Assembly (NCBI GenBank): GCA_017617575.1
Contig: JAFZVY010000097.1
Coordinates: 1 to 47,774, forward strand
Source: Bacteroidaceae bacterium
GTDB lineage: Bacteria > Bacteroidota > Bacteroidia > Bacteroidales > Bacteroidaceae
DNA length: 47,774 bases
Reading direction: 5' to 3'
Under the pieces are notes generated by a model, which had not been told where the DNA came from, searched no databases, and saw only the letters and a program-made list of their open reading frames with translations. Every line of letters begins with the position of its first letter. Positions within the stretch are counted from its first letter, which is position 1. The position numbers and the translations under genes are program-made. Shown here piece by piece: positions 9,636 to 44,538 of this stretch.

Positions 9636-9809
9636 TTAATCAATTGATAGTCGTCCTTTTGCCTCAATAGGCATGTCGGGAACAGTTGCATTTCCGTTAG
9701 TTGTACCATTAAATGCTCTGCTATCAGCAGTACTACCAGCAAGAATACTCATGCGCAATCCTGTAGTGTGTTTCATAGCACATGGAGTAATGTAGTTCTT
9801 TGATTTCAT
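9636..9809 (-). CDS. Small peptide with conserved RMSILAGS leader motif (ILAGS peptide 1)
   Basis: This 57-residue product begins MKSKNYITPCAMK, has R-M-S-I-L-A-G-S at residues 19-26, and ends in a polar tail containing TVPDMP. Its first 26 residues match the peptide at 44356 in spacing and in MK.KNY..P and R.SILAGS. The Cys-rich peptide at 38936 shares R.NILAGS. It lacks a hydrophobic stretch and so has no obvious Sec signal. The fimbrillin/FISUMP lipoprotein starts 18 bp downstream, so the two are probably co-transcribed. I do not know a function. The most economical idea is a ribosomal-peptide precursor with a shared leader and a variable core. Confidence 0.75.
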   Translation of the reverse strand: MKSKNYITPCAMKHTTGLRMSILAGSTADSRAFNGTTNGNATVPDMPIEAKGRLSID

Positions 9810-9875
9810 ATCTGTTTGTCATATTATGCCGACTCCTCGCATAGAAATATCTTTTCACTCATTACATACAGGCAC

Positions 9876-9972
9876 AAAAAAAACGTGGAGCCCGAATCTG
9901 TCGCTCGTCCCACGTGTTGAGGCTCTGGCATCGCCCAAATCATCGAAACGAGCAACGCCGAAAGCCCCACGT
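9876..9972 (-). promoter_or_regulatory. Long terminator-like hairpin with U8 in the ILAGS-1 leader
   Basis: In the minus-strand RNA, ACGTGGGGC (9972-9964) pairs with GCTCCACGT (9891-9883; one G-U). Inside it, GTTGCTCGTTTC (9956-9945) pairs with GGGACGAGCGAC (9911-9900) over 12 bp with three G-U pairs. Eight U residues follow directly (9883-9876). This is the shape of an intrinsic terminator, placed between a strong promoter match (10212-10243) and the ILAGS-1 start (9809). It could be an attenuator or the 3' end of a separate small RNA. Confidence 0.6.
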
Positions 9973-10211
9973 AGAATGTATAATGACACACCACAGACAA
10001 AGACACGTAAGGATACAATAATCCCTACACACTCGCTGAGGTATGTATATAAACATCCCAAGGGGCGTTCCCGTTGCTTTGTTTTTGATGATTTGTCTCA
10101 GAACTGCCAGATTCCAACACTTCAAAACCAAAGCGTACAGTTACGCCTTTTTATGTCAGTATGTCTTATCCCACCCACCCTATCAAGGGCTTTCGGTAGG
10201 ATAAAGTGCCA

Positions 10212-10243
10212 CAAAGTTAGGAAAGTAATCCCTTACAGCCAAA
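10212..10243 (-). promoter_or_regulatory. Promoter for the ILAGS-1/fimbrillin transcript
   Basis: On the minus strand TTTG (10243-10240) is followed after 20 bp by TAACTTTG (10219-10212), a full match to the Bacteroidota consensus. It would give a leader of roughly 395 nt before the ATG at 9809, unusually long for this window, where other leaders are tens of nucleotides. Confidence 0.65.
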
Positions 10244-10383
10244 CATTTGAATATGAAATATTACAAAAAAGGGTAATAAAAAAGTTGACAAACATAAAGG
10301 AACATAGACGAAGTGGTCAAAAACACAAAAGCCAAAAAGAGGAATGACTTTCCATTATAACTACGAAACAGGTACGGTTGAAG

Positions 10384-10427
10384 TACTGACTAAGTATTGA
10401 CTAACTACTGACTAAGTACTGACTATG
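10384..10427. repeat. 11-bp tandem array, word TACTGACTA
   Basis: TACTGACTA or TATTGACTA starts at 10384, 10395, 10406 and 10417, exactly 11 bp apart. The word was not noticed at the other array loci. Confidence 0.85.
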
Positions 10428-10780
10428 AACTTTAGGACAATGCTCGGACGAAGATGTGTTGTTCACGAAATCTGAGTGACATAATGTCACCTGATGATTC
10501 ACGAAAGAATTACGAAGGATGCACGAGACATTAGCGAAGGATTGACGGAGGATGACTGTGTGACACAAAGATAATAATCCTTGCTCTTCCGTGACAAAAT
10601 GATAAGGCAGTACGAAGGTCTAAGTAGTCAACTGTAAATAAAATTAAGTTAAACCAGAATCAACCTTTATTAAGATTAAGAGGATAAGTAGTCAATCAAA
10701 TCGTTAAACTACACTCCGGATGGCATGTTAATTGTTAATTATTAATTGTTAATTGTCAGTTTGGTTTGAGTACGTCGCCG

Positions 10781-10861
10781 ACGAACTCTCAGTCCGTCCC
10801 CCAACGTACTCTCAGTTCGTTCGGCACGAACTGTCAGTACGTTCCGCTACGGACTGAACGT
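10781..10861. repeat. 22-bp-period array of semi-palindromic words
   Basis: ACGAACTCTCAGTCCGT (10781), ACGTACTCTCAGTTCGT (10804), ACGAACTGTCAGTACGT (10826) and a partial ACGGACTGAACGT (10849) repeat at 22-23 bp. The array at 45584 has the same architecture and closely similar words, so the two are homologous. Confidence 0.8.
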
Positions 10862-10975
10862 AAAACGTAACTTACATTTCCACCTCTGGCGGTGGACTTT
10901 TAAGAACCCGCCGCCATAGGCGGCTAAATGCGCAATCTACGCAATCTTTTGGACAATCTTAACAATCTTGTTTTC

Positions 10976-11125
10976 TTGCACTAAGGTGCTTATTAGAAAA
11001 ACAGTCAAGAACTTTTCTCACTGACCAGCGGGAAGTAAACAGAACAAAAACAAGAAAAAACAAAATCATGGTTTTCTTTTGTTTTCTTTGGTTTTCCCCT
11101 TGTTTTTCTAATTGGCTGCGTAGCG
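10976..11125 (-). repeat. Dispersed inverted-repeat element, copy A
   Basis: Read on the minus strand, this copy aligns closely with 35198-35325: ends TTAGAAAAACA and TTTTTCTAAT with TGCACTAAGGTGC-type flanks, and shared inner blocks GGGAAAACCAAAGAAAACAA and TTCTTGTTTTTGTTCTGTTT. Copy A carries about 30 extra bases between the inner block and one end. There is no transposase, so it is MITE-like or a structural repeat. Confidence 0.75.
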
Positions 11126-11272
11126 GCACAAAAAACAAGAAAGTGTAAAGATAAAAAAAATGCGTAGATTGGCTATAAGATTGCGTAGATTGGTAATTTA
11201 GCTCCCAAGAGGGAGCGGGTTCTAAAAGATGTTTCAGTGTAGCCAACCAAGGCGATATGTTTTCATGAGGCG

Positions 11273-11310
11273 TAAAAAAAAAGCCTCTCCATGGCGAACC
11301 ATGGAGAGGC
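11273..11310 (-). terminator. Intrinsic terminator of mdh
   Basis: On the minus strand a 12-bp perfect stem (arms GCCTCTCCATGG and its inverse, loop of 4) is followed by nine T residues. It lies 27 bp past the mdh stop codon, a textbook intrinsic terminator. Confidence 0.9.
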
Positions 11311-11336
11311 GTATCGTTTATATCCGAGTAATCAGA

Positions 11337-12329
11337 TTAGAGATTTGGGTTGAGTGTACCCCAATCCTTGATTGCAGGGATGATGTTGAGAGTTACGAGC
11401 TCATCACGCATCTTCTGAAGGTGCTCGTAAGAAGCCTGGAGAGCAGCCATCTCGTCAGCAGTACCCTCTGGTGCTGTGAAGTGAACACCATCCTTGTCGA
11501 TTGTAGTTGGCATAGCCATCATCACGTTCTTGTAACCGAGCTTGTCGCAGTTAACGTAGCAACCAGCAGGGAGTGTGAATGGCTCACCGCCCATAGCGCC
11601 TTCAATCATCTTGACAGCCTGGTAAGCTGGGCTCTGGAATGATGAACGACCACGAAGCTTGATGATGTTAGAACCACCCTGGATTGTATTGTGCTTAATC
11701 TCAGCCCAACGCTCTGCAGAAAGTGGGAGGTCAGCAAGTGGCTTGCCGTCAACCTTCACCTTAGAAGCGAATACAGCCATCTGCTCACCGTGACCACCGT
11801 AAGTGTGTGCACCTGTAACCTTATCCTGCTGTACACCGAACTCCTGAGCGAGCTGCTGCTGGAGACGAGTAGAGTCGAGAGCAGCGAGTGAAGTAAGCTG
11901 GTTTGGCTTAAGACCAGAGTGGATAAGAGCTGTAAGAGCTGTTACGTCTGCTGGGTTGAAGATAACAACAACGTGCTTTACATCTGGGCAATACTCCTTG
12001 ATGTAGTCACCGAACTGTGCAGCAATCTGGCAGTTACCCTTGAGGAGGTCCTCACGAGTCATTCCCTCCTTACGTGGAGCACCACCTGAAGAAATGATGT
12101 ACTTAGCACCTGTGAAAGCAGTCTTTGGGTCAACTGTCCAAGTGATGTTAGCACCTGGGAAAGCGCAATGAGCCATCTCATCTGCTACACCGTGTACACC
12201 TGGCTCGAAGATATCATAAAGACAAATGTTTGGTGTAAGACCAAGCATAAGAACTGATTGAACCATGTTTGAGCCGATCATACCGCCAGCTCCTACAATA
12301 ACGAGTTTTTCGTCTGTTAAGAATGCCAT
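11337..12329 (-). CDS. mdh: Malate dehydrogenase
   Basis: The 330-residue cytoplasmic enzyme interconverts malate and oxaloacetate with NAD in the TCA/fumarate-fermentation pathway. The N-terminal nucleotide-binding loop VGAGGMIGSN (about residues 12-21) and the substrate-binding loop GGAPRKEGMTREDLL are visible. So are the Asp-Arg pair in LDSTRL and the catalytic His in GAHTYGGHGEQM. The length suits the longer MDH form used by Bacteroidales. It is a single transcription unit with its own promoter boxes and a strong terminator. Codon use is G/C-richer than the accessory genes. Confidence 0.95.
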   Translation of the reverse strand: MAFLTDEKLVIVGAGGMIGSNMVQSVLMLGLTPNICLYDIFEPGVHGVADEMAHCAFPGANITWTVDPKTAFTGAKYIISSGGAPRKEGMTREDLLKGNCQIAAQFGDYIKEYCPDVKHVVVIFNPADVTALTALIHSGLKPNQLTSLAALDSTRLQQQLAQEFGVQQDKVTGAHTYGGHGEQMAVFASKVKVDGKPLADLPLSAERWAEIKHNTIQGGSNIIKLRGRSSFQSPAYQAVKMIEGAMGGEPFTLPAGCYVNCDKLGYKNVMMAMPTTIDKDGVHFTAPEGTADEMAALQASYEHLQKMRDELVTLNIIPAIKDWGTLNPNL

Positions 12330-12380
12330 AATGTTTCTGATTTTTTATATTTAATATATAATGTACTTCATTTCGGATTG

Positions 12381-12408
12381 CAAAGTTATCCCTTTATTTC
12401 GGTTCAAA
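12381..12408 (-). promoter_or_regulatory. Promoter of mdh
   Basis: On the minus strand TTTG (12408-12405), then 16 bp, then TAACTTTG (12388-12381). The spacing is slightly short but both boxes match. The leader to the mdh ATG is about 45 nt. Confidence 0.6.
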
Positions 12409-12510
12409 CAATTTTATTAAACGATTTTTCGGCGCAAAAATCAAAAAAAAGACTTTTTACTAACTTTCAAGAGGTAAAAAAACTAAAAGTGGAATGTTCA
12501 TTGTACAATA

Positions 12511-12543
12511 TAGACAGAATACGGAACAAAGTAAGTATCTTTG
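12511..12543 (+). promoter_or_regulatory. Probable promoter of the threonine aldolase gene
   Basis: TATCTTTG at 12536-12543 is a full -7 match; TTG at 12511-12513 is a weaker -33 candidate. Transcription from here would include a roughly 110-bp inverted repeat in the leader. Confidence 0.55.
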
Positions 12544-12596
12544 CAGCCCGTGAGACTACTACGGTTTTCTCTTTGGAACGGAAATACGCATCTCTC

Positions 12597-12707
12597 TTGA
12601 AACACAGAGAGCACTGAGGACTCAGAGGGAAATATTTTATCTTTGAAACGAAGATTTAGAAAATTCATTCTAATCTCCGTGTCCTCTGCGACCTCTGTGT
12701 TTCAGGA
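12597..12707. repeat. Dispersed CACAGAG inverted repeat, copy 1
   Basis: Left arm AAACACAGAGAGCACTGAGG and right arm CCTCTGCGACCTCTGTGTTT are near-inverse and about 65 bp apart. Related copies lie at 13889-13951 and 32954-33035, with half copies near 35346 and 41150. The arms would form a long hairpin in the leader of the aldolase gene. Confidence 0.7.
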
Positions 12708-12734
12708 AAAGACTAATCATTAACAACAAACACT

Positions 12735-13760: not shown

Positions 13761-13797
13761 GAGCGGCCCCACCCCTGCCCTCCCGAGGGAGGGAGAC
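13761..13797. repeat. G/C-rich hairpin repeat after the aldolase gene
   Basis: C-rich block beginning at the stop codon with the perfect palindrome CCCTCCC-GA-GGGAGGG (13778-13793). Same family as 5356 and 42922; possible terminator hairpin. Confidence 0.65.
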
Positions 13798-13888
13798 GGC
13801 GCACGACTTGCAGACAAAAACACGATTTGTTTTTAGAACGAAAATTTAGAAAATTAAAGAAAATTTATTTTTCTTATCGATTATAAAA

Positions 13889-13951: not shown

Positions 13952-13962
13952 ACAAGTAATTT

Positions 13963-33078: not shown

Positions 33079-34407
33079 TTACTTCTTTGGAGAGCCTTCC
33101 TGCCAGTTGCTAAAGTCACGAAGATCCTTGACGTGCTTTGCCTTGCCAATTGAACGCTCGATATTGCCAGGTTCCTTGATGTGGATGTTTGGCTTGATAC
33201 CGACAAGCGAAACGATACGGTCGTAGAGAGGCTTGATGAACGGCATCTGCTTGGCTGGGTTTGGCGAGAAGTATTCCTCACGAAGCTCAACGTCGAGGTC
33301 GAATGTGTCCTCATTATGCTTACGGTCAACAGTAATGAAATACTGTGGAGTGAATGCTGGGAACTCTGTGAGTACAGTCTCTATCTGGCTTGGGAACACG
33401 TTTACACCACGTATGATGAGCATATCGTCTGAACGACCGAGAATCTTACCGATACGTACAGCCGTACGTCCACACTTACACTTCTCGTAGATGAGGTGGG
33501 TAAGGTCACGAGTACGGTAGCGGATGATTGGCATAGCCTCCTTGGTGAGTGAAGTGAACACGAGTTCGCCTTGCTCTCCCGGAGCAACAGGTTCGAGTGT
33601 CTCTGGGTTGATGATTTCAGGGTAGAACATATCTTCCCACACGTGAGTACCGTCCTGATACTCGCACTCACCGCCTACACCAGGACCTGACATCTCTGTC
33701 AATCCGTATATGTCTATAGCCTTGATACCAAGCTTCTGCTCTATCTCACGACGTATGCCCCATGTCCAAGGCTCTGCACCGAAGAATCCCACACGGAGGT
33801 TCAAGTCTCCCGGCTTGATGCCATTACGCTCTGCCACCTCTGCAAGGTGAAGAGCATACGAAGGAGTACAACAGATGGCTGCCGTCTTGAAGTCTTGCAT
33901 AAGCATAATCTGCTTCTCTGAGTTACCTGCAGAGATAGGAAGCTGGATGGCTCCACGCTTTGCCACACCGTCATGTGCACCAAGACCTCCAGTGAAGAGT
34001 CCGTAGCCGTAAGCTACCTGAACAACATCACCAGGACCTACATCGCCTACTGCAAACACACGTGCAACGCCCTCTGCCCAGTTGTCGAGGTCATTCTTGG
34101 TGTAAGTACCCACAACAGGCTTACCAGTAGTACCTGATGAAGCATGGATACGTACTATCTCCTCCTGTGGCACAGCCTGCAAGCCGAATGGATATTCGTC
34201 ACGCAAGTCATGCTTAGTGGTGAATGGCAACTTCGTGATGTCGTCAATACTCTTTATGTCTTCAGGCTTCACTCCGAGTTCGTCCATCTTTCTCTTGTAG
34301 AAAGGCACTTTCTCGTAGCAAGTCTTAACAGTCTTTATCAATCGCTCACTCTGGAGCTTACGCATAGACTCACGGTCCATGCACTCAATTTCCGGATTAT
34401 GTATCAT
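33079..34407 (-). CDS. paaK: Phenylacetate--CoA ligase family enzyme
   Basis: The 442-residue adenylate-forming enzyme joins arylacetates to CoA, or runs in reverse to make ATP from aryl-acetyl-CoA. Visible motifs are the phosphate loop HASSGTTGKPVVGTY (about residue 90), YGLTEMSGPGVGGECEYQDG, and the TRDLT/GRSDDML hinge region near residue 305-330. The C-terminal PaaK domain ends in NIERSIGKAKHVKDLRDF. It lies next to iorB and iorA. In many anaerobes this set converts aryl-pyruvates to arylacetates with energy conservation, or the reverse for aromatic amino-acid synthesis. Confidence 0.92.
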   Translation of the reverse strand: MIHNPEIECMDRESMRKLQSERLIKTVKTCYEKVPFYKRKMDELGVKPEDIKSIDDITKLPFTTKHDLRDEYPFGLQAVPQEEIVRIHASSGTTGKPVVGTYTKNDLDNWAEGVARVFAVGDVGPGDVVQVAYGYGLFTGGLGAHDGVAKRGAIQLPISAGNSEKQIMLMQDFKTAAICCTPSYALHLAEVAERNGIKPGDLNLRVGFFGAEPWTWGIRREIEQKLGIKAIDIYGLTEMSGPGVGGECEYQDGTHVWEDMFYPEIINPETLEPVAPGEQGELVFTSLTKEAMPIIRYRTRDLTHLIYEKCKCGRTAVRIGKILGRSDDMLIIRGVNVFPSQIETVLTEFPAFTPQYFITVDRKHNEDTFDLDVELREEYFSPNPAKQMPFIKPLYDRIVSLVGIKPNIHIKEPGNIERSIGKAKHVKDLRDFSNWQEGSPKK

Positions 34408-34417
34408 GTTTTATTAA

Positions 34418-34452
34418 AAGCCCCCCAGCCCCCAAAGGGGGCGGCCTCCGGG
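34418..34452. repeat. G/C-rich hairpin repeat upstream of paaK
   Basis: GCCCCCCAGCCCCCAAAGGG followed by GGGCGGCC. The inner part CCCCCAAAGGGGG is a hairpin. It matches, in inverse order, the block at 34556-34581 around the iorB stop. Confidence 0.6.
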
Positions 34453-34572
34453 ACACGGAGTTAAAAGCTTATTATTTGTGTTATTATTTCGTTTTTATTT
34501 TATGCCACCATTTTCTCAACCTTGGAGTAAATCAAATCTTCGCTCTACTCCGAAGGCTGCCCCCTTTGGGGG

Positions 34573-35151
34573 TTAGGGGGCCACCCTTTCCACTCCCTCA
34601 TCGAACGCCTTGAGGTTAGCCTCAACCACGGCTTCGCCCTTGCGAGCAAAGATTACGGCTATGGCGTCACGCAGCTGTTCCACGGTAAGTATCTCTATAT
34701 ATGGGGCAGCCATGCCGAGGAGTACCATGTTGGCACCACGTACATTACCTGCATCCTTTGCCACGCTCTCTATGTCGAGTTTCACGACGGATGGCATGGA
34801 GTCAAGCTCTGCCATGAGGGCTGACTCGTCAGGATAGTTAGGTATGTTGACGAAAGGCTTGCTACTCGTAACGATTGTACCAGTCTTGGCAAGGTATGGA
34901 AGATAACGGAGTGACTCCATAGGCTCCATACTGATAACCACATCGGCACCACCCTGAGAGATGAGGTCTGAATATATTGGCTCAGTTGAGAGACGGAGGT
35001 TGGACTGTACGTCACCACCTCGCTGACTCATTCCGTGAACCTCAGCCTGCTTGAGATTGAGACCTGCCTTTGTGGCTGCCTCACCTATGATTGTCGCGAT
35101 GGAGAGGATACCTTGTCCGCCCACACCGCAAAGAATAATATCTTTCTTCAT
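34573..35151 (-). CDS. iorB: Indolepyruvate:ferredoxin oxidoreductase, beta subunit
   Basis: The 192-residue protein is the gamma-type domain subunit of the 2-oxoacid oxidoreductase family. It begins MKKDIILCGVGGQGILSIAT with the typical GVGGQG nucleotide-like loop. HGMSQRGGDVQSNLRL and GGADVVISMEPMESLRYLPY follow. I chose the Met at 35151, three codons into the longest frame, since it gives the usual N-terminus. The last residues V-A-P and the stop codon lie inside a C-rich repeat, so the C-terminus was probably set by the repeat insertion. It pairs with iorA upstream. Confidence 0.92.
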   Translation of the reverse strand: MKKDIILCGVGGQGILSIATIIGEAATKAGLNLKQAEVHGMSQRGGDVQSNLRLSTEPIYSDLISQGGADVVISMEPMESLRYLPYLAKTGTIVTSSKPFVNIPNYPDESALMAELDSMPSVVKLDIESVAKDAGNVRGANMVLLGMAAPYIEILTVEQLRDAIAVIFARKGEAVVEANLKAFDEGVERVAP

Positions 35152-35168
35152 AAAAAACACGCCCCCCC

Positions 35169-35341
35169 CGTACGGTTAAAGCTTGAATTGCGGTTTTTGC
35201 CGCAAAGCGGCCAGTTAGAAAAACATAGGGAAAACCAAAGAAAACAAAAGAAAACCTGTTTTTTCTTGTTTTTGTTCTGTTTCTTTATGGTTTTTCTAAT
35301 AGGCACCTTAGTGCAAAAATATAACCGTACAGGTCGTATCT
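35169..35341 (+). repeat. Dispersed inverted-repeat element, copy B
   Basis: The most intact copy has outer 9-bp inverse flanks GTACGGTTA and TAACCGTAC, ends TTAGAAAAACA and TTTTTCTAAT, and inner blocks GGGAAAACCAAAGAAAACAA and TTCTTGTTTTTGTTCTGTTT. It fills the iorA-iorB spacer together with a half CACAGAG repeat (about 35346-35365). Confidence 0.75.
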
Positions 35342-35388
35342 TTTCAACACAGAGGACTCTGAGAATTACCCTTCGTCAGCCTCCATGT

Positions 35389-35450
35389 TAATTATTAATT
35401 ATCAATTATCAACTGTCAATTATCAATTATCAATTGTCAATTATCAATTG
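35389..35450. repeat. Heptad array TCAATTA at the end of iorA
   Basis: TCAA recurs at 35402, 35409, 35416, 35423, 35430, 35437 and, as the iorA stop region, 35444, always 7 bp apart. Confidence 0.85.
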
Positions 35451-37039
35451 CCTCCAGAGGTCTTAGCCTTCTCCCTCGCATGGCGTGCAGCCGTCTGGAT
35501 GCACTCACGACGTGGGATGATGACACTCGTTCCCTCGTATGCTATCTCGTCACGAATAAGCTGTGCGATGGCAGGTATGTTCTTAGGAAGAGGAGTGACC
35601 ACGTGAAGATGCTCTGGGTTGAGTCCAAGACCGAGACATATTGCCTCGTACTTGTTAAGTCCTGCACTATCCTGTCCTCCAGTCATACCTGTGGTGAGGT
35701 TGTCGCTAATGATTACCGTTATTGGCGCATTCTCATTTATGGCATCAAGGAGACCTGTCATACCAGAGTGAGTGAAGGTAGAGTCACCTATGACTGCTAT
35801 GGCTGGACGAAGACCTGCGTCAGCAGCACCCTTTGCCATGGTGATACTTGCACCCATGTCCACGCAACTTGAGAGTGCCTTGAATGGAGGAAGAGCTCCA
35901 AGCGTGTAGCAACCGATATCTCCAAACACACGTGCATCTGGATATTCCTCGATAATCTCGCGGAGTGCTCCATACACGTCCCTGTGACCGCATCCCTGAC
36001 AGAGCTGTGGAGGACGACCTGCAAGGTTCTTTGCGTTATCGAATGCAGGACCAGATGGTTTGCCAAGAGCCACAGCAACGTTATCTGGAGTAAGCTCGCC
36101 TGTACGTGGGAGGTCGCCGGTGAGACGTCCCTTAACCACATAACCTGTACCAAGGAGAGCCTTAACGTCCTGCTCCACTACTGGCTGACCGTCCTCCACC
36201 ACGAGGATTGCATCATTCTCCTTGGCAAGTTGCCTTACCTTATCTTCAGGAAGTGGATACTGGCTTACCTTGAGGATATTGGCTGTGTCGCCCACATTCT
36301 CTTTCACATAGTTGTAGGCGATACCGCAAGCTATGATGCCAAGCTTGCCACCACCCTTCTCCACCTTATTGAATGAAGAGTTCTCGGAAGCTGCCAACAT
36401 CTTTGGCTGCTTGTCGAGCAACTCCAAGTATTTCCTACGTGCAATACCAGGGAGGAGAACCCACTGGTCCGTACTTGCATTATACTTGTTCTCGTCCCTC
36501 ACGCTGCTTACCTCTACAGCCGCACGACTGTGGGCAAGGCGAGTGACGACACGAAGTACAACGGGCACGTGCAGTTCCTCGCTAAGGTCAAAAGCCTTAG
36601 CCATCATGTCGTAAGCCTCCTGCTGGTTGCTTGGCTCAAAGACTGGCACCATGGCAAACTTGCCATAGAAGCGAGAGTCCTGCTCATTCTGGCTGGAGTG
36701 CATGGAAGGGTCGTCGGCAGCAAGTACGACGAGACCGCCATTAGCACCCGTAATGGCAGAATTGACAAAAGCATCCGCACACACATTCATTCCCACGTGC
36801 TTCATGCACACGAGGGCACGCTTGCCAGCATACGACATACCGAGAGCAGTCTCCATGGCAGTCTTCTCGTTGGTACACCAACGGCTATGAATGCCACGCT
36901 CCCTTGCCAAGGCGTTGCCCTGGATAAATTCTGTTATCTCTGTGGATGGGGTACCCGGATAAGCATACACTCCGCTCAATCCGGCATGAATGGCGCCAAG
37001 CGCTATAGCCTCATCACCAAGAAGTAGTTTCTTTTCCAT
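35444..37039 (-). CDS. iorA: Indolepyruvate:ferredoxin oxidoreductase, alpha subunit
   Basis: The 531-residue thiamin-diphosphate enzyme subunit oxidatively decarboxylates aryl-pyruvates to aryl-acetyl-CoA using ferredoxin. The N-terminal pyrimidine-binding part has VYAYPGTPSTEITEF and ETALGMSYAGKRALVCMKHVG. The C-terminal TPP-binding part has LCQGCGHRDVYGAL, FGDIGCYTLGALPPF and VIGDSTFTHSGMTGLLDAI...NLTTGMTGGQ. The C-terminal two-[4Fe-4S] ferredoxin domain found in archaeal IorA is absent: the protein ends shortly after the TPP part, with G-G-N-stop encoded by a heptad array. Some bacterial IorA proteins may naturally be this short, so truncation is not proven. Confidence 0.92.
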   Translation of the reverse strand: MEKKLLLGDEAIALGAIHAGLSGVYAYPGTPSTEITEFIQGNALARERGIHSRWCTNEKTAMETALGMSYAGKRALVCMKHVGMNVCADAFVNSAITGANGGLVVLAADDPSMHSSQNEQDSRFYGKFAMVPVFEPSNQQEAYDMMAKAFDLSEELHVPVVLRVVTRLAHSRAAVEVSSVRDENKYNASTDQWVLLPGIARRKYLELLDKQPKMLAASENSSFNKVEKGGGKLGIIACGIAYNYVKENVGDTANILKVSQYPLPEDKVRQLAKENDAILVVEDGQPVVEQDVKALLGTGYVVKGRLTGDLPRTGELTPDNVAVALGKPSGPAFDNAKNLAGRPPQLCQGCGHRDVYGALREIIEEYPDARVFGDIGCYTLGALPPFKALSSCVDMGASITMAKGAADAGLRPAIAVIGDSTFTHSGMTGLLDAINENAPITVIISDNLTTGMTGGQDSAGLNKYEAICLGLGLNPEHLHVVTPLPKNIPAIAQLIRDEIAYEGTSVIIPRRECIQTAARHAREKAKTSGGN

Positions 37040-37303: not shown

Positions 37304-37573
37304 TTACGGAGTAACGACCTTTTCTTCTATCCAGTCTTTAACCAAGTCCTTAACGGCTTCCTGTGCATCTTCACGACTTACCTCATATTCTTCCAGAAGC
37401 AAATCCACAAGCATACCTTCCGTAAAGTCTGTTCCTTCAATTGCTTTCCACAGATAAGCCGCGCTCTCATTCATCTTTCGGAGCACGCCCGAATGAGCAA
37501 CATTTGCACCCATTCCAACCAATAGGTTCTGTGAACCTAATGTTTGCAATTTATAACCTTCAACTGTTTTCAT
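37304..37573 (-). CDS. PqqD family peptide-binding protein (RiPP recognition element)
   Basis: The 89-residue protein matches the PqqD fold: a beta-rich first half (GYKLQTLGSQNLLVGMG), then MNESAAYLWKAIEGTDFTEG and helices LVDLLLEEYEVSREDAQEAV and KDLVKDWIEEKVV. PqqD-type domains bind precursor leader peptides and present them to a radical-SAM maturase. It overlaps the radical-SAM gene by four bases (ATGA), so the two are translationally coupled. The intact fold and length suggest a working gene. Confidence 0.87.
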   Translation of the reverse strand: MKTVEGYKLQTLGSQNLLVGMGANVAHSGVLRKMNESAAYLWKAIEGTDFTEGMLVDLLLEEYEVSREDAQEAVKDLVKDWIEEKVVTP

Positions 37574-38919
37574 ACACTTTCATCTTTCTTTTGACGCTCC
37601 AAATATGACTTGTATTCATTCCGTATATAGGCTTCTATATCCGCAATTTTCTTGTCCCTAAATTCTTTGTGACATTTCTTTGCGTCATGACACACTTCAA
37701 GTCTAATACACTCCGGATATAAAGGACATATTTTGCATTCTTCAAGCTTATCACAATGTTTACTATATTTTGCAAGCATATCTTCGTTTAGAGTAGCATC
37801 ATCTATATGCCCCACATAATTACCATCCAGACAACTTTCACATTTTGTCAGATGTCCATCTGGCAAAACAACAATTTCATCATACGAATCCGCCATACAA
37901 TAATGGTTCATAAAAGACTTATTTATCACATATGACGAATTATTAAGTCCCAACGACACAATTTTTTCATCCAAAAGCTTTTGAGACTCACAGATTTCCT
38001 TGCGACGTTCATGTGTTCTCACAAAACCTCCACACTTACCAACTTCTTCAAACAAAGGATGAGAATAAACACTTAATCCTTTCCGCCCCTTATATCGTGT
38101 TGCTAAGCCTTCCACTAAGCAACACATATCTTTCATATTATATGCATCTATATTCAACCTAATAGACACATCTATTTCAGAGGATAATAAGTTATCAATA
38201 TTGCAAAGTACACGTTCAAACGCATTTACGCCATCGTAAATATATGCCTTTACTTTATTATACGTTTTTTCCGTTCCATCCAAGGTTATCTGAACACGAT
38301 TGAGATTCCAAAGTTCTTTGGCTTCACCTATAATCTCCGTATCAAACAAATAGCCATTACTTACCATAGAACTTCTAAAGTTAATATTTTTTGATTTAAG
38401 GCCAGAGCAGATAATATTAATAGCTTTAACATTATACAATGGCTCACCTCCAAACCAAGAAATAGAAACTTTAGAATCTCTGCGATGCGTCTTATCAATA
38501 TATTCAACAACTCTATTTGCAACGTCATCTGACATTGATTTTTTTTTAGAATTCGCTTCAAAGCAATAGAAGCATCTTGCGTTACAATCAGTTGTTGGTA
38601 ATATTGTATAGCCTTTTATTCCTGGTGTTTGATGAAGTGTACAAAGAAATATATTACGCAAATCATCGACAAATTGCAACTCATCAAAATCCGAAGGAAC
38701 ATAAAACCATTTCTCAAACAAAACATCTTTTATGCTTTCACCATAATATTCTGATTTCTCAATTAACAAACATTCCTTTGTTAACGTATTGAACAAAATA
38801 AATCCATCTTCAACTTTCAACTCGTAACAAAAGGAAGACTTACGGGAAACACAGTCAGTAATAGGCTGGTTTCCCGTTATATCCATCACCTCTTCTATAG
38901 GCAAGGAAAGAACTTTCAT
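37570..38919 (-). CDS. Radical SAM/SPASM peptide-modifying enzyme
   Basis: The 449-residue enzyme has an N-terminal region of about 100 residues, then the radical-SAM cluster motif CNARCFYCF (CxxxCxxC) near residue 113-121 and SWFGGEPL. VQITLDGTEKTYNKV follows. The C-terminal SPASM-type cysteine set includes HYCMADSYDEIVVLPDGHL, KCESC, CKICPLYPECI and CHDAKKC. Such enzymes use S-adenosylmethionine to form thioether or carbon-carbon crosslinks in ribosomal peptides. The preceding gene (16 bp upstream) encodes a 5-Cys peptide with an ILAGS leader, the obvious substrate. The gene is A/T-richer than its neighbours, which fits transfer. Product type is unknown. Confidence 0.9.
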   Translation of the reverse strand: MKVLSLPIEEVMDITGNQPITDCVSRKSSFCYELKVEDGFILFNTLTKECLLIEKSEYYGESIKDVLFEKWFYVPSDFDELQFVDDLRNIFLCTLHQTPGIKGYTILPTTDCNARCFYCFEANSKKKSMSDDVANRVVEYIDKTHRRDSKVSISWFGGEPLYNVKAINIICSGLKSKNINFRSSMVSNGYLFDTEIIGEAKELWNLNRVQITLDGTEKTYNKVKAYIYDGVNAFERVLCNIDNLLSSEIDVSIRLNIDAYNMKDMCCLVEGLATRYKGRKGLSVYSHPLFEEVGKCGGFVRTHERRKEICESQKLLDEKIVSLGLNNSSYVINKSFMNHYCMADSYDEIVVLPDGHLTKCESCLDGNYVGHIDDATLNEDMLAKYSKHCDKLEECKICPLYPECIRLEVCHDAKKCHKEFRDKKIADIEAYIRNEYKSYLERQKKDESV

Positions 38920-38935
38920 TATTTGCTTGTGTATA

Positions 38936-39130
38936 TTAAAAAGTCATTCTACTACGCGCATATCCCTCATCAACCTTTCTACAATTAGGCATACAAACCA
39001 CACCTTCATCGCCATCTATAATACAATATCTTGGCCTACAAAAGTGCTGATGGCACTCACCACTACCAGCCAAAATGTTCTCACGTAGTCTAATGCCCTT
39101 AATCTCAGGCTTTACGAATTGTTTTTTCAT
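38936..39130 (-). CDS. Cys-rich RiPP precursor with ILAGS leader (ILAGS peptide 2)
   Basis: The 64-residue peptide begins MKKQFVKPEIKGIRLRENIL, with ILAGS at residues 19-23. Five cysteines follow in the pattern C-x4-C-x4-C-x9-C-x3-C (first in GSGEC, last in MPNC), then a basic tail EGYARSRMTF. The Met at 39130 was chosen because a longer in-frame start at 39199 lies in an A/T-rich leader and would spoil the match of MK....P with the other two ILAGS peptides. It is followed 16 bp later by the radical-SAM gene and then pqqD, a standard precursor-maturase-carrier order. No protease or exporter gene is next to it. Confidence 0.85.
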   Translation of the reverse strand: MKKQFVKPEIKGIRLRENILAGSGECHQHFCRPRYCIIDGDEGVVCMPNCRKVDEGYARSRMTF

Positions 39131-39267: not shown

Positions 39268-39269
39268 CG

Positions 39270-39960: not shown

Positions 39961-39963
39961 TAA

Positions 39964-39995: not shown

Positions 39996-40016
39996 CAGAT
40001 AGAAAACTTAAGATAT

Positions 40017-41123: not shown

Positions 41124-41149
41124 ACAAAACGAAGATTTGTATTTCGTTA

Positions 41150-41250
41150 AAACACAGAGGGCACAGAGAACTCAGAGAATAAAAGATTTTTTTCTTGTTT
41201 TTGTTCTGTTTCTTGCCTGTTTTTCTAATTGGCGCACATGCGCACAACTT
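41150..41250 (+). repeat. Half CACAGAG repeat joined to inverted-repeat element, copy C (partial)
   Basis: AACACAGAGGGCACAGAGAA (from 41150) is followed by TTCTTGTTTTTGTTCTGTTT (41189-) and TTTTTCTAATTGGC. This is the right part of the element seen complete at 35169-35341. At 35 kb the half CACAGAG repeat is on the other side of the element. Just downstream an 8-bp-step repeat (CTCACAAA) leads to the nitrilase ATG. Confidence 0.65.
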
Positions 41251-41303
41251 TCCGCAAGAACTAACAAACTCACAAACTCACAAACTTAAAAACTTACACA
41301 ATA

Positions 41304-42092
41304 ATGACAATAAGCTTACTACAAACAGATATAGTCTGGGGCAACCCTGTTGCCAACCAGCAGAGAGCAGAGGAGCTTATCAAGAGCCTCGACAAGTCGG
41401 ACGTGTATGTACTCCCGGAGATGTTCTCCACAGGCTTTGCCACAGAACCTGAGGGTATAGCCGAGGACGACCTCGCGTCACTCTACTGGATGCAGAAGAC
41501 AGCCAAGGAGATGGATGCTGCCATAGCAGGAAGCGTGGCTACGTGCATCGTGACAGACGGCAAGAAGACGTACCACAACCGCTTCTACTTCGTGAAGCCT
41601 GACGAGACATACGAGTACTACGACAAGCATCACCTCTTCACCTTCGGAGGAGAGCACCACCGCTACACACGTGGCACGGAGCGCAAAGTGGTGGAGTTCC
41701 GTGGCGTGAAGTTCCTTCTTCAGGTGTGCTACGACATGCGCTTCCCTATCTTTGCCCGCAACACGAAGGAGAACCCTTACGACGTGGCTCTCTACGTGGC
41801 AAGCTGGCCTACAGTACGCCTTGGTGCATGGAAGACGCTTGCCCACGCACGTGCCATAGAGAACCAATGCTACGTGGCTGCCGTTGACCGCACGGGCAAC
41901 GACCCATACTGCTCATACAGCGGAGGTACGATGCTCATAGACGCCTACGGCAATACCGTGGCAGAATGTGAGGAGAACAAGGAATGCGGCATAACCGTGG
42001 AACTTGACCTCGATGCCCTCTACGCTTTCAGGAAGAAGTTCCCAGTACTCGAAGATGCTGACGCTACGCGCAGCTCGTCAGTTAAAAGTTAA
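41304..42092 (+). CDS. Nitrilase-superfamily omega-amidase (YafV/NIT2-like)
   Basis: The 262-residue C-N hydrolase has the Glu-Lys-Cys triad: Glu in LPEMFSTGF (about residue 41), Lys in YDKHHLFTFG, and Cys in LLQVCYDMRFPIF. The tail HARAIENQCYVAAVDRTGND is typical of the omega-amidase/YafV branch. Members hydrolyse 2-oxoglutaramate-type amides formed by glutamine transaminases, a metabolite-repair role. The exact substrate is inferred. The C-terminal residues V-K-S and the stop codon come from a GTTAAAA heptad array. Confidence 0.9.
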   Translation: MTISLLQTDIVWGNPVANQQRAEELIKSLDKSDVYVLPEMFSTGFATEPEGIAEDDLASLYWMQKTAKEMDAAIAGSVATCIVTDGKKTYHNRFYFVKPDETYEYYDKHHLFTFGGEHHRYTRGTERKVVEFRGVKFLLQVCYDMRFPIFARNTKENPYDVALYVASWPTVRLGAWKTLAHARAIENQCYVAAVDRTGNDPYCSYSGGTMLIDAYGNTVAECEENKECGITVELDLDALYAFRKKFPVLEDADATRSSSVKS

Positions 42093-42111
42093 AAATTAAA
42101 AGTTAAAAGTG
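42081..42111. repeat. Heptad array GTTAAAA at the end of the nitrilase gene
   Basis: GTTAAAA, GTTAAAA, ATTAAAA, GTTAAAA in 7-bp steps. It overlaps the last three codons and the stop of the nitrilase gene. Confidence 0.8.
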
Positions 42112-42270
42112 GAGAGAGAAGTCGTTAAGCTATAAGTTGCGAACCTAATAGAGAAAGATAATTTTCTTTAATTTTATAAATTTTCGTTCTTTCCATTAGT
42201 GTGACAGACTATCGTCTTTTTACTCCTTCTAACTTCTTCTTACTCCTATTAACTACAGAAATAAAGGAAA

Positions 42271-42921
42271 ATGAAAGATTCACTTATAGTTGTGTCTGGA
42301 GGAATGGACTCCGTCACTATGATGTACGAATATGCAGAACAGATAGCTCTTGCAGTTAGCTTCGACTACGGAAGCAACCACAACAAGAAAGAGATTGAGT
42401 TTGCCAAGCTCCATTGTGAGCGTCTCGGCATTCGCCACCTCATCATACCACTTGCCTTCATGGGTCAGTATTTCAAGTCCTCACTCCTTGAAGGTGCTGA
42501 CGCCATACCTGAGGGTCACTATACGGCAGAGAACATGAAGAGTACCGTCGTGCCTTTCCGCAACGGCATCATGCTGAGCATAGCATGCGGACTTGCCGAG
42601 AGCAACGGACTCAAGAAGGTACTCATAGCCAACCACGGTGGCGACCACACCATCTACCCAGACTGTCGTCCAGAGTTCATCAACGCCATGTCAAGCGCCA
42701 TGACTCTCGGCACGGACACTCATGTGGAGGTGTTCGCACCTTACACCAACATCACGAAGTCGGATATTGCTCGCCATGGCAAGGCTCTCAACATCAACTA
42801 TGCCGAGACATGGTCATGCTACAAGGGTGGCGACAAGCATTGTGGCAAGTGCGGCACCTGCGTGGAGCGCAAGGAAGCCCTTGCCGAAGCAGGCATAGAG
42901 GACACAACGGAGTACGAGTAG
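42271..42921 (+). CDS. queC: 7-cyano-7-deazaguanine synthase
   Basis: The 216-residue ATP-dependent enzyme makes preQ0 from 7-carboxy-7-deazaguanine in queuosine biosynthesis. The PP-loop is SGGMDSVTMMYEY at residues 9-21. The middle contains VPFRNGIMLSIACGLAES and ANHGGDHTIYPDCRPEF. The C-terminal zinc-binding cysteines are in CYKGGDKHCGKCGTCVERK. The length is normal. The queD/E/F partners are not in the window. A C-rich hairpin repeat follows the stop at once, then a strong terminator. Confidence 0.95.
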   Translation: MKDSLIVVSGGMDSVTMMYEYAEQIALAVSFDYGSNHNKKEIEFAKLHCERLGIRHLIIPLAFMGQYFKSSLLEGADAIPEGHYTAENMKSTVVPFRNGIMLSIACGLAESNGLKKVLIANHGGDHTIYPDCRPEFINAMSSAMTLGTDTHVEVFAPYTNITKSDIARHGKALNINYAETWSCYKGGDKHCGKCGTCVERKEALAEAGIEDTTEYE

Positions 42922-42961
42922 GAGCCCCTCTCCCCAACCCTCCCCCTCTATGGGGAGGGTG
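42922..42961. repeat. G/C-rich hairpin repeat after queC
   Basis: C-rich block starting directly after the TAG, with CCCTCCCC-ctctat-GGGGAGGG as a hairpin. Same family as at 5356 and 13761. Confidence 0.65.
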
Positions 42962-43012
42962 ACTAATGCAAGAATAGCACTCGAAAGAAGCGCTCTACAC
43001 TACTAAAACAAG

Positions 43013-43058
43013 CGTCCTGCTTGCGACCGTCTTTAGTCGCAAGCAGGACGTTTCTTTT
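43013..43058 (+). terminator. Intrinsic terminator of queC
   Basis: CGTCCTGCTTGCGA (43013-43026) pairs perfectly with TCGCAAGCAGGACG (43037-43050), followed by TTTCTTTT. Confidence 0.85.
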
Positions 43059-43065
43059 AGGGTCA

Positions 43066-43142
43066 CATGACAGCCAAGGAATTTCTAAAGTCAATGGGGC
43101 AAACCAGAAAATCCATATCTCTCAAAACAAGGGATATGGATG
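43066..43142 (+). pseudogene. Left direct repeat: leftover 3' end of a second PIN-domain gene
   Basis: This segment matches the last codons and 3' flank of the PIN gene (43837-43906): a 32-nt block with one change, then a 29-nt identical block. Its frame reads MTAKEFLKSMG, next to MTAEEFLKSME in the intact gene. It is the remains of an earlier tandem copy or the outcome of insertion by recombination. The two repeats are 771 bp apart. Confidence 0.8.
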
Positions 43143-43160
43143 TAAATCTATTCTTTTTTT

Positions 43161-43191
43161 TTTGCTTATTCAATATTTATTTGTAGTTTTG
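43161..43191 (+). promoter_or_regulatory. Promoter of the PIN toxin-antitoxin pair
   Basis: TTTG (43161-43164), 19 bp, TAGTTTTG (43184-43191), then 26 bp to the first ATG. A clean consensus match placed between the left direct repeat and the module. Confidence 0.75.
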
Positions 43192-43217
43192 CAGCAGAAT
43201 CAAAACGCAATAGCATT

Positions 43218-43472
43218 ATGACAACATTAGCACAGAGAATAATGGAAACGCCGATGGCACCATATACGGCTTTACTACGCGGAATGACCCGCGAGCAAAA
43301 GCGTATTGTAGTGACATTCATCAACGAATCCATGAACGAGCCAACGCATAATGACAAACCATACGAGGTTGCTCCAGTGTCTCAAACCATCAAGAAATGG
43401 AGAGGTTGTGCTTCTTTCACAAAAAATGAATTAGAAAACGATGCACGTCTTAAAGCTATCATAAACAAATGA
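43218..43472 (+). CDS. Putative antitoxin of a PIN-type toxin-antitoxin pair
   Basis: The 84-residue protein begins MTTLAQRIMETPMAPYTALL, with a helical middle (LRGMTREQKRIVVTFINESM) and a charged C-terminal half that may wrap around the toxin. I do not recognise a DNA-binding fold, but size, position before a PIN gene and a four-base ATGA overlap with it mark it as the antitoxin. The -7 box lies 27 bp upstream of the ATG. Autoregulation is likely for such pairs but not visible. Confidence 0.7.
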   Translation: MTTLAQRIMETPMAPYTALLRGMTREQKRIVVTFINESMNEPTHNDKPYEVAPVSQTIKKWRGCASFTKNELENDARLKAIINK

Positions 43473-43873
43473 AACGAATTTTTCTTGACACAAACATTCT
43501 TGTAGATTTTGCTTTGGAACGAGAACACGGTGACGATGCAGAACAACTACTACAACGGGGACTTGATGGAATCATAAGTTTACAAGCATCATATCTTACG
43601 TTTGCAAACATGGCATATATCATGAAGAACAAAGTTGATGTGTACGAGCTATTCAACGACCTTTGCAAATTCATTTCCGTACTACCTATGGACGAGAAGC
43701 AACTACATACAGCCTTGACCCATAGAGTACATGATTTTGAAGATATGCTCCAATACCAATGTGCAAAAACTGCCAATTGCGACGTAATAGTGACAAACAA
43801 CCGTAAAGACTTCATCGAGTTCAGCACCCTTCCAATCATGACAGCCGAGGAATTTCTAAAGTCAATGGAATAA
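43469..43873 (+). CDS. PIN-domain ribonuclease toxin (VapC-like)
   Basis: The 134-residue PIN protein has the N-terminal acidic strand MKRIFLDTNILVDFALERE with the first catalytic Asp. A Glu/Asp-bearing middle contains LTHRVHDFEDMLQYQCA, and the last Asp lies in CDVIVTNNRKDF. PIN toxins cleave tRNA or other RNA when freed from their antitoxin. The end MTAEEFLKSME recurs in the upstream direct repeat. The length is normal, so the gene is probably active. Confidence 0.87.
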   Translation: MKRIFLDTNILVDFALEREHGDDAEQLLQRGLDGIISLQASYLTFANMAYIMKNKVDVYELFNDLCKFISVLPMDEKQLHTALTHRVHDFEDMLQYQCAKTANCDVIVTNNRKDFIEFSTLPIMTAEEFLKSME

Positions 43874-43906
43874 ATAACATATCTCTCAAAACAAGGGATA
43901 TGGATG
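43837..43906 (+). repeat. Right direct repeat at the PIN gene end
   Basis: Counterpart of 43066-43142. Both copies carry a CATATC...GATATG hairpin over the sequence TCTCAAAACAAGG and could also serve as terminators of a PIN transcript. Confidence 0.75.
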
Positions 43907-44070
43907 CAAAACGACCACATTCATTTGTTTGCTCCACGACTAACATAACACGCCCCAAACAACAAGCATATTTGCTTTATAATTGTCTTATATCGAACAT
44001 GGGGGGGTAAAATTAAAAGGGATGGAATGATAAATTAACATAATAGGTGGTATGTTCAGTAAAATATTCA

Positions 44071-44078
44071 TACCTTTG
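44071..44078 (+). promoter_or_regulatory. -7 box for the ILAGS-3/fimbrillin transcript
   Basis: TACCTTTG, full -7 match; the -33 is unclear. The leader to the ATG at 44356 would be about 270 nt. The 14-mer AAACGATTAGGTGA shared with the RiPP operon lies at 44105-44118, just inside the transcript. Confidence 0.55.
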
Positions 44079-44084
44079 CCACCG

Positions 44085-44355
44085 AAATATTAAATATTAT
44101 TAACAAACGATTAGGTGATATAAGCATAATATGAATTTCATATAGTATATACGCAAAGGATAATATCTTGACGGCTGTGAGGTCGTTAAGGCAGTTTCTT
44201 GTATCTATCATGTATGTTCATTCGCTTATTATACACGGATAACGACTAAGGGTGGAAACATCCAAAGGTTGAAATGTTGAGATAATCAAAACTTTTTTAT
44301 TAACAATCAAGGCAAGACTATTCTTGCCCAATTCTAACTTTTATTAAAAACAACA
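44085..44355 (+). promoter_or_regulatory. Structured 270-nt leader of ILAGS-3
   Basis: Three pairings are seen: GTCGTTA (44182-44188) with TAACGAC (44240-44246); GGGTG-GAAA-CATCC (44250-44263), a GNRA-type loop; and GGCAAG-CTTGCC (44311-44328). It has no open frame of note and may be regulatory. Confidence 0.45.
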
Positions 44356-44538
44356 ATGAAACAGAAAAATTATGTTGCTCCTTCCATTTCGGAGCGTGCG
44401 TCACGCATACGCACAAGCATCTTAGCTGGCAGTATTGATAACATCCACTCACACGATGTGCCATGGGGAGATGCAAGACAGAGAACAGTTCCAACAACAC
44501 CATCTGATGGCAAAGTAAACGAAGTATTAAGTTTTTAA
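44356..44538 (+). CDS. Small peptide with RTSILAGS leader motif (ILAGS peptide 3)
   Basis: The 60-residue product begins MKQKNYVAPSISERASRIRT with R-T-S-I-L-A-G-S at residues 19-26, exactly where ILAGS peptide 1 has it. A variable polar part follows with IHSHDVPWG and TVPTTP, then VLSF. It has no cysteine and no hydrophobic signal. A fimbrillin-like lipoprotein gene starts 12 bp downstream, the same order as at 9636/8010. Function unknown; probably a ribosomal-peptide precursor or a secreted small protein with a processing site after the AGS. Confidence 0.78.
   Translation: MKQKNYVAPSISERASRIRTSILAGSIDNIHSHDVPWGDARQRTVPTTPSDGKVNEVLSF

Follow-up and report, generated by a model that had tools for sequence, protein, structure and literature searches.

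The window, the whole stretch of 47,774 nt from a Bacteroidaceae bacterium that was analysed, carries three small peptide genes and the genes adjoining them (Table 1). A first-pass annotation had placed three peptides with a common leader here; all three open reading frames exist, but those of peptides 1 and 2 lie on the minus strand, the plus-strand frames at these places being interrupted by stops. The N-terminal pattern it described holds in the alignment, where M1, K2, K4, P9, R19, and ILAGS are common to all three, as does the TVPxxP of peptides 1 and 3 (TVPDMP and TVPTTP, respectively). The pattern [YFW]..P...[RK]..[IL]L.GS, drawn up with the peptides already seen, has three matches in the six frames of the window against one in 100 first-order Markov shuffles. 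A scan of the three window peptides against Pfam and NCBIfam gave no match at E≤1.

Table 1. Peptide genes of the window, their adjoining genes, and the RRE gene on contig C152
Feature	Position	Strand	Description
Surface lipoprotein gene 3' of peptide 1	8010..9617	-	gap 18 nt; lipobox MTSC by eye
Peptide 1	9636..9809	-	57 aa, YxxP...ILAGS, precursor-like; core end MPIEAKGRLSID
PqqD-type RRE	37304..37573	-	overlaps the end of the radical SAM gene; PF05402 E 1e-13
Radical SAM peptide maturase, CxxxCxxC	37570..38919	-	16 nt 3' of peptide 2
Peptide 2	38936..39130	-	putative radical-SAM RiPP precursor; leader MKKQFVKPEIKGIRLRENILAGS; core with Cys
Peptide 3	44356..44538	+	60 aa, YxxP...ILAGS, precursor-like
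Fimbrillin-like lipoprotein gene	44545..45498	+	6 nt 3' of peptide 3
Genus-wide PqqD-type RRE	C152:15823-16092		discrete gene beside kinase and peptidase; PF05402 E 4.7e-15

As had been described, a radical-SAM/PqqD pair lies 3' of peptide 2 and a lipoprotein gene 3' of each of the other two. Both lipoproteins had been called fimbrillin-like, which is borne out for the partner of peptide 3 (PF13149 Mfa_like_1, E 1.6e-8, 35.4 bits, above cut-off); for the partner of peptide 1, whose C-terminus is GIPVRAVCE, it is a matter of resemblance only, as nothing scored above cut-off in Pfam and NCBIfam scans. A later ATG, at 44551, is a possible alternative start for the gene after peptide 3. Local modification enzymes are absent at peptides 1 and 3. 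A second, near-identical copy of peptide 1 was found by whole-genome profile search on contig C47 (L005), and a second copy of the peptide 2 leader lies on contig C129. The maturase beside peptide 2 carries a radical SAM domain (PF04055, E 4.6e-14), and the order precursor-like gene, radical SAM, PqqD recurs in a sheep-rumen relative (L114).

A profile of the three peptides gave 25 matches genome-wide at E≤10, and a leader-only profile found 26 paralogues in the window genome at E≤1e-3. With two further paralogues (C86 and C55) from later searches, the family, which had been suspected to be wide, counts no fewer than 28 members in the window genome instead of three, and extends to relatives; peptides 1–3 are real and related, and part of this larger set. 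The family leader consists of [YF]xxP and an invariant Ser 15–17 residues on, mostly within R..[IL]LAGS; [YF]xxP is present in 26/26 paralogues and in 27/27 relative loci examined, the searches themselves favoring the motif. In the 27 loci from same-genus relatives, found with a profile that favors Ser, the Ser lies at P+15 to P+18. Both leaders on the radical-SAM side form a subtype of their own, with Phe in place of Tyr, 23 identical residues, and Ser at P+15 where others mostly have P+17, so that the Pro-Ser stretch is two residues shorter than in most other copies. Mean identity among the 26 paralogues is 41.6% in the leader against 7.7% in the ungapped core. Leader nucleotide identity at codon positions 1, 2, and 3 is 0.46, 0.57, and 0.35, respectively, and a different codon is used at 1749 of 2977 same-residue leader sites. 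These leader figures indicate conservation at the protein level, which supports translation. The cores do diverge, as had been noted, yet are not free to vary at will: C-terminal motifs recur among family members, by patterns composed after viewing the sequences, for which shuffled controls do not correct. The strict leader profile (E≤1e-3) matched just one of the 18 other genomes of the genus, and a broader profile (A6) was required for relatives.

Tabulation of the neighbors of the 26 paralogues, leaving out the C86 and C55 copies, placed 22 of them beside lipoprotein, surface-protein, or radical-SAM genes: 11 precede a lipoprotein gene, nine follow a surface-protein gene, and two are at radical-SAM sites, the remaining four being unplaced. 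T9SS-CTD-like ends occur in eight of the nine surface-protein genes that lie before a paralogue. In same-genus relatives, with neighbor classes assigned by eye, 27 loci from 17 genomes gave 18 copies after a CTD-like gene (one of them also before a lipoprotein gene), five before a lipoprotein gene, one before NTP_transf_5, and three with none of these neighbors; these are the same-genus relatives among 30 loci listed, with two window-genome loci and one from G028 left out, and they stand among the matches listed, further A6 matches having come without loci. The 11 genomes that had supplied no sequence to the profile (16 loci) gave eight, five, zero, and three in these classes. In a separate test, 30 NTP_transf_5 loci out of 40 match rows were examined, and at 2 of them a YxxP peptide lies directly upstream. 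Beyond lipoprotein and radical-SAM genes, the two kinds of downstream gene first recognized, the copies have further contexts: directly after T9SS-CTD-like surface proteins and, in relatives, next to an LPP-type NTP transferase or kinase.

The proteins preceding same-genus copies are termed CTD-like only, because neither six same-genus tails nor four longer same-genus frames matched TIGR04183. A reverse test, starting from 102 CTD-like gene ends in three genomes, located a YxxP ORF at -20 to +300 nt of 19 of them and no such peptide at the other 83; among 813 background windows, each 320 nt long, 26 held a YxxP ORF. One of the 19 cases (L257) is no family member and another (L158) is doubtful, and by our own count 11 belonged to the 16 sequences that built the CTD profile. 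The independent cases, 8/91 against the background of 26/813, are only modestly above background; six of these eight were newly found, the doubtful L158 among them.

The RRE on C152 belongs to a locus that recurs across the genus. PqqD was found in 16 of 18 other same-genus genomes, and kinase, peptidase, and RRE frames occur together in 17/17 PqqD-bearing genus genomes, by models partly built from the same loci; in G001, G004, G008, and G015 the peptidase was picked up by profile search. The peptidase S/H/D residues are invariant in 10/10 aligned rows, the rows inspected being from genomes other than these four, and the kinase P-loop is invariant in 5/5 rows, with GxSGTGKST intact. The kinase of the window genome matches TIGR04352 (E 6.8e-6, 25.4 bits, cut-off 200) and has no Pfam match, and the model of its G016 orthologue matches PEPCK (E 2e-7) and HprK/P (E 2e-5), so that its HprK-like identity is one of remote similarity and not a curated assignment. 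The peptidase of the window genome scores 19.0 bits against PF00717 (cut-off 23.3), with no NCBIfam match at E≤0.01. Its G016 orthologue reaches TIGR02228 at E 1e-7 (32 bits, below the cut-off of 51.85), and the model of this orthologue is closest to the signal peptidase homologue SipA (4n31, E 8e-4), followed by LexA. No NTP transferase or MsbA-like exporter was seen in the C152 locus, the two NTP_transf_5 genes of the window genome both lying away from it, and no precursor was seen inside the 11 genus loci scanned. One genome, G014, has peptides and no PqqD match. Within the genus, the co-occurrence of peptides and locus is confounded by descent, as both follow the genus.

Outside the genus, 147 genomes of the order were searched with the peptidase profile, and six had matches. 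All six peptidases lie within 1.5 kb of a kinase-size P-loop protein, and an RRE-type ORF is present at five of the six loci. NTP_transf_5 occurs at three (L267, L268, and L271), each with an ABC-like gene (Pfam-confirmed at L267, by eye at the other two). Three of the six locus-positive genomes had a peptide match at E≤0.15, compared with none of 12 locus-negative genomes (best 0.95); in G026, G091, and G123, the locus is present and a convincing peptide absent. The locus-positive genome G069 has 17 YxxP peptides, 15 of them ahead of a lipoprotein gene. In G035 (L271, L333), the cluster opens with a precursor-like gene, that of a YxxP...FAAS peptide located 38 nt ahead of the kinase; a second YxxP peptide, whose leader (FAGS) matches, is found 20 nt downstream of a TIGR04183 T9SS gene. 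L341 of this genome scores 50.2 bits against TIGR04183 (cut-off 23), which identifies it as T9SS type A cargo.

We suggest that one LPP-like machine acts in trans on dispersed precursors, an explanation that we consider the best for the data and to which, as a whole mechanism, we give a probability of about 0.68. Peptides 1–3 would be precursors of ribosomally made, modified peptides, whose leader, [YF]xxPx[hydrophobic]...[IL]LxGS, might dock on a PqqD-type RRE. The first-pass annotation had read the common leader as a recognition signal, which is consistent with the leader of the 26 paralogues and with the motif [Y/W]xxPx[L/V/I/F/A] that discrete PqqD-like RREs are reported to bind (PMC13381572, PMC12710340). 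Peptide 2 would be processed by its own radical SAM/PqqD pair, while peptides 1 and 3 and most paralogues would be served in trans by the locus of HprK-like kinase, signal-peptidase-like protease, and RRE. In this scheme, presentation of the leader would fall to the RRE, the kinase might phosphorylate the invariant Ser of A-G-S, whose spacing is close to that of the LPP core Ser3, and the protease might cut at or near AGS. At the LPP-equivalent site, a signal peptidase would meet a Leu before AGS, an atypical residue there, and a cut after AGS would suit the usual rule better. Operon-like placement would allow a modified peptide to be made together with its surface protein, and export and a role at the surface may be presumed for the peptides. 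We infer that processing occurs in trans, such that one shared enzyme set encoded elsewhere probably cuts and modifies the peptides. A PqqD acting in trans had been proposed before, and the data agree with this, but for peptides 1 and 3 it is likely the C152 RRE rather than the radical-SAM partner at 37304, since the radical SAM was found in only 4 of 45 same-genus genomes (E≤1e-40) whereas YxxP peptides were found in 18 of 19 (profile A6, E≤0.1), the window genome being counted in both. A more demanding version, in which every precursor is firmly tied to a surface protein of its own and a single RRE/kinase/peptidase set serves at least two dozen of them per genome in trans, appears doubtful to us.

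The LPP system has been described as restricted to Bacillota, with one to three precursors per cluster, a motif YxxPxVLxHQxIxFETxxS in which the phosphorylated Ser is P+15, and an S3T change that abolished phosphorylation (PMC13381572). The likeness to that account lies in a discrete RRE, an HprK-like kinase, and an SpI-like peptidase side by side and in a YxxP leader whose Pro is followed 15 residues later by a Ser; NTP transferase and ABC-like genes are added at some other Bacteroidales loci. In contrast, the host here belongs to Bacteroidota and carries no fewer than 28 precursor-like genes, dispersed over the genome and mostly beside surface-protein genes, and the full leader consensus is absent: there is no HQxIxFET, and only YxxP and a similarly spaced Ser are common to both.

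We found no description of such a scattered-precursor layout of a modified-peptide system for this bacterial group. In most known modified-peptide systems the precursor lies beside its enzymes. Mining tools commonly presuppose this arrangement and would overlook a system whose precursors are scattered. If our explanation is true, peptide modification and surface proteins would be connected in a Bacteroidota lineage, the LPP type would extend beyond Bacillota, and short proteins unnamed by the family scans of the three window peptides would gain testable roles. In G035, where one putative precursor lies within the enzyme cluster and another follows a T9SS cargo gene, the link is open to direct testing.

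It is also conceivable, but in our view unlikely, that the peptides undergo no modification and are small proteins or leader ORFs acting on the adjoining surface-protein genes, by translational coupling or by some other regulation. Many copies ahead of a lipoprotein are spaced from it by -8 to +18 nt, and those behind CTD-like genes by -4 nt or more; such tight gaps would suit this role, as would the fact that no modification enzyme was noticed near most copies. However, 9 of the 20 placed copies away from radical SAM, and 18 of 24 in relatives, follow their partner gene, which a leader ORF does not explain; moreover, conservation is at the amino-acid level, the leader fits the known RRE docking motif, and one G035 copy sits within a modification cluster. 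The case for the single radical SAM/PqqD pair (37304-38919) working in trans on every peptide is poorer by far. ILAGS is common to the leaders, and the 37304 PqqD is 34–43% identical to the eight genus-wide RREs compared, so that its binding surface may resemble theirs; yet the radical SAM is much rarer in the genus than the peptides, the leaders on its side form the shorter subtype described above, and only 3 of 26 cores contain Cys. Slightly less probable again is that AGS is a variant double-glycine site and that the peptides leave the cell through peptidase-containing ABC transporters (PCATs), otherwise unmodified: [YF]xxP is not known as an element of GG leaders, and no PCAT was noticed in the peptide neighborhoods read by eye. 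RiPP clusters of the same order, Bacteroidales, do combine PCATs with GG-motif precursors, but the GG motif is absent from the peptides here, and "LAGS" does not occur in the main text of that study (PMC10352776). Chance likeness, for which 481 ORFs of at least 30 aa offer some scope, was rejected on the strength of the 26 genomic copies at E≤1e-3 and the excess of window matches over shuffles.

Compared with lasso peptides, the family has a similar YxxPx[hydrophobic] leader, and its RREs match NCBIfam lasso PqqD models below cut-off, but reading the loci by eye brought up no ORF for a macrolactam cyclase or B2 peptidase. Lasso cores follow a ring rule of Gly1 and Asp/Glu at 7–9, and no such pattern was seen in the cores here. 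Nine stretches of viral contigs fit a pattern, none of which was confirmed, and a plasmid search with the radical SAM cluster gave no match. For peptide 2, a Cys-bearing core together with radical SAM and PqqD recalls TIGR04463 (rSAM_vs_C_rich), the best NCBIfam match of its maturase, which differs from the members of that family in scoring 147.2 bits, below the curated threshold of 525. A Bacillota relative (L115) carries two similar radical-SAM-like ORFs, a PqqD-like ORF, and a Cys-rich precursor-like peptide with a YxxP...LAASG leader.

The first-pass annotation had proposed that three small peptides of the window share a common leader, and this holds: the open reading frames are real, with peptides 1 and 2 on the minus strand according to ORF translation, and their alignment is shared over MK, [YF]xxP and R..ILAGS. 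A chance origin of the leader motif was ruled out by a motif scan of the window against shuffled sequence. Pfam and NCBIfam scans found no family naming any of the three. In the genome of the window (3.38 Mb in 162 contigs, the window being C4), a profile built from the three peptides gave 25 matches at E<=10 and a leader-only profile gave 26 at E<=1e-3; a broader profile added two members, on contigs C86 and C55, bringing the family to at least 28. Our leader, core and neighbour counts cover the 26, without these two. All 26 have [YF]xxP and a leader ending in GS; by manual count, 23 have a Pro-to-Ser distance of 17 residues and one has 16, and in the two radical-SAM-linked peptides it is 15. 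The leader is conserved as protein, not as DNA: amino-acid identity among paralogues is 41.6% in the leader and 7.7% in the core, and nucleotide identity in the leader is 0.46, 0.57 and 0.35 at the first, second and third codon positions (325 pairs of paralogues). Cores average about 35 residues, and their recurring ending patterns, all picked after the sequences had been viewed, are [AGDTSV][RK].[RK] in 21/26 (shuffled mean 3.9), a DMPW-like motif in 11/26 (shuffled 0.3) and SID/LSF-like ends in 14/26 (shuffled 0.2). Because contig C47 carries a near-identical copy of peptide 1 with its own lipoprotein gene, a recent duplication of this two-gene unit is suggested.

Different partner genes had also been noted, and tabulating the neighbours of the leader-profile matches (classes assigned by eye) revealed a surface-protein or radical-SAM partner in 22/26. 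A lipoprotein gene lies directly downstream of 11 peptides (gaps -8 to 204 nt), eight peptides are directly 3' of the gene for a large protein whose end is T9SS-CTD-like (gaps -4 to 127 nt), one follows a dockerin-like end, and two are at radical SAM sites; no clear partner gene was found by eye in four neighbourhoods. One radical SAM site is that of peptide 2; the other, on C129, has a family copy with the identical 23-residue leader, and its contig stops just past the start of a related maturase. Peptide 2 forms a compact cluster of precursor, radical SAM and PqqD. The same three-gene order occurs in a sheep-rumen Bacteroidaceae MAG (L114; 66% identity), with leader FVKPEIKSLRLRENILAGS and a Cys-rich core, and in a Bacillota MAG (L115; 37%) two similar radical-SAM-like ORFs are accompanied by a PqqD-like ORF and by a Cys-rich precursor whose leader is of the form YxxP...LAASG. 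The radical SAM was found in 4/45 same-genus genomes at E<=1e-40, one of the four partial. The cluster is a new member of a type of system already known.

With a broad leader profile, 17/18 other same-genus genomes have 3 to 14 peptides each at E<=0.1; the sole genome without them, G005 (65% complete), gave no PqqD match either, and G014 has peptides and no PqqD match. Ser is at P+15 to P+18 in 27/27 relative loci examined, 24 of which are flanked by an upstream CTD-like gene, by a downstream lipoprotein gene or, once, by a downstream NTP transferase of the type found with the linear polyphosphorylated peptides (LPP) of Bacillota. The same partner classes recur in 13/16 loci from 11 genomes contributing nothing to the profile, and a YxxP peptide is just upstream of NTP_transf_5 in 2/30 loci. 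The reverse test, which starts from CTD-like gene ends and looks for YxxP ORFs, gives weaker and in part circular evidence.

Two papers describe [Y/W]xxPx[L/V/I/F/A] as the docking motif of discrete PqqD-fold leader-binding proteins, or RREs (PMC13381572, PMC12710340). PqqD is present in the window's genome and in 16/18 other same-genus genomes. In all 17 PqqD-bearing genomes, kinase, peptidase and RRE frames occur together in a search with profiles partly derived from the same loci. In L146, L147, L148 and L153 the order is small protein, C11 protease (a PF03415 match in L146, by eye in the others), HprK-like kinase, S24/signal-peptidase-like protease and PqqD; what we take to be a sigma factor precedes this row and a presumed uracil-DNA glycosylase ends it. 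The peptidase Ser/His/Asp are invariant in 10/10 aligned rows and its predicted structure has a signal-peptidase/LexA fold; the kinase P-loop is intact and its predicted structure matches PEPCK and HprK. Sequence-family support is weak: the window genome's peptidase scores 19.0 bits for PF00717, and it matched no model in the NCBIfam scan. The lipoprotein and 165 aa protein upstream in L146 have look-alikes at the same place in the sister loci inspected, and may be part of the system. In G007, the second set at L155, of kinase, PqqD and ABC exporter, is followed by genes resembling those of a histidine kinase and a response regulator. G018 likewise carries a further, diverged kinase-peptidase-RRE set (L154, G018:C74), which adjoins an apparent radical SAM gene and may join two kinds of maturation.

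Coordinates of additional family members and of putative maturation loci
Feature	Location	Strand	Remark
Extra family member, LLAGS leader	L365:1619-1747 (C86)		broad profile only
Extra family member, LICGS leader	L366:1863-2048 (C55)	minus	broad profile only
Second peptide 1	C47:28494-28664 (L005 / L075)		two residues changed
Kinase to RRE	C152:13969-16092		window's genome
165 aa protein	L146:3573-4070		directly upstream of kinase-peptidase-RRE
Clostripain-family PF03415 lipoprotein	L146:4076-5326		directly upstream of kinase-peptidase-RRE
Second kinase-PqqD-ABC exporter set	L155:5601-8419 (G007:C11)		without peptidase

Outside the genus, 6/147 other genomes of the order match the peptidase profile. 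In 6/6 the match lies <=1.5 kb from a kinase-sized P-loop protein; five of these loci contain an RRE-type ORF, which was not found in L269. Three loci (L267, L268, L271) also have NTP_transf_5 and an ABC-like gene, the latter Pfam-confirmed in L267 and assigned by eye in L268 and L271. In G035, the kinase is preceded at 38 nt by a YxxP...FAAS peptide, and another peptide, with a matching FAGS leader, follows at 20 nt a gene encoding a TIGR04183 T9SS domain. G069, where the locus is present, has 17 YxxP peptides at E<=0.07, mostly of its own leader type, KPDFEVINLEDTPKLLAAS or KPDFEVYELNWEAPLLSAS; 15 have a lipoprotein gene downstream (lipoboxes by eye), one a CTD-like gene upstream and one a contig end. 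One of these 17 ORFs (L355, G069:C52) terminates just before the conserved Ser. G099 gave a single weak match (E 0.15) ahead of a lipoprotein gene, the 12 locus-negative genomes gave no match below E 0.95, and no convincing peptide was found in G026, G091 and G123, which have the locus.

The HprK-like kinase, signal-peptidase-like protease and RRE of the locus on C152 are core parts of the LPP system. In LPP, LppB presents the leader to LppS and LppK phosphorylates core Ser3, which neither Thr nor Tyr could replace; the paper describing this states that LPPs are restricted to Bacillota (PMC13381572), and its main text has no word starting 'bacteroid'. The peptide family, leader, neighbours, locus and intact residues are established, and we infer that the RRE would bind the peptide leader in trans, the kinase would phosphorylate the Ser of AGS and the peptidase would cut at AGS. 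The strict retention of this Ser favours, by analogy with LPP, a phospho-acceptor role. A-x-S fits the signal-peptidase rule with a cut after Ser, and the exact cut could be there or elsewhere at AGS. In a search of the open-licence literature we recognised no account of peptides of this kind next to T9SS or fimbrillin-like genes, nor of LPP-like loci in Bacteroidota. Several PF14907 (NTP_transf_5) genes of the genus, among L274-L301, adjoin, by eye, apparent glycosyltransferase/polysaccharide genes, which echoes the capsule link reported for LPP.

Elsewhere in the window, we take 43469-43873 to be a PIN-like protein; a small ORF (43218-43472) immediately precedes it, and by eye the two resemble a toxin-antitoxin pair. 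The stretch 33079-37039 presumably holds phenylacetate-CoA ligase-like and indolepyruvate oxidoreductase-like genes, ordinary in appearance.
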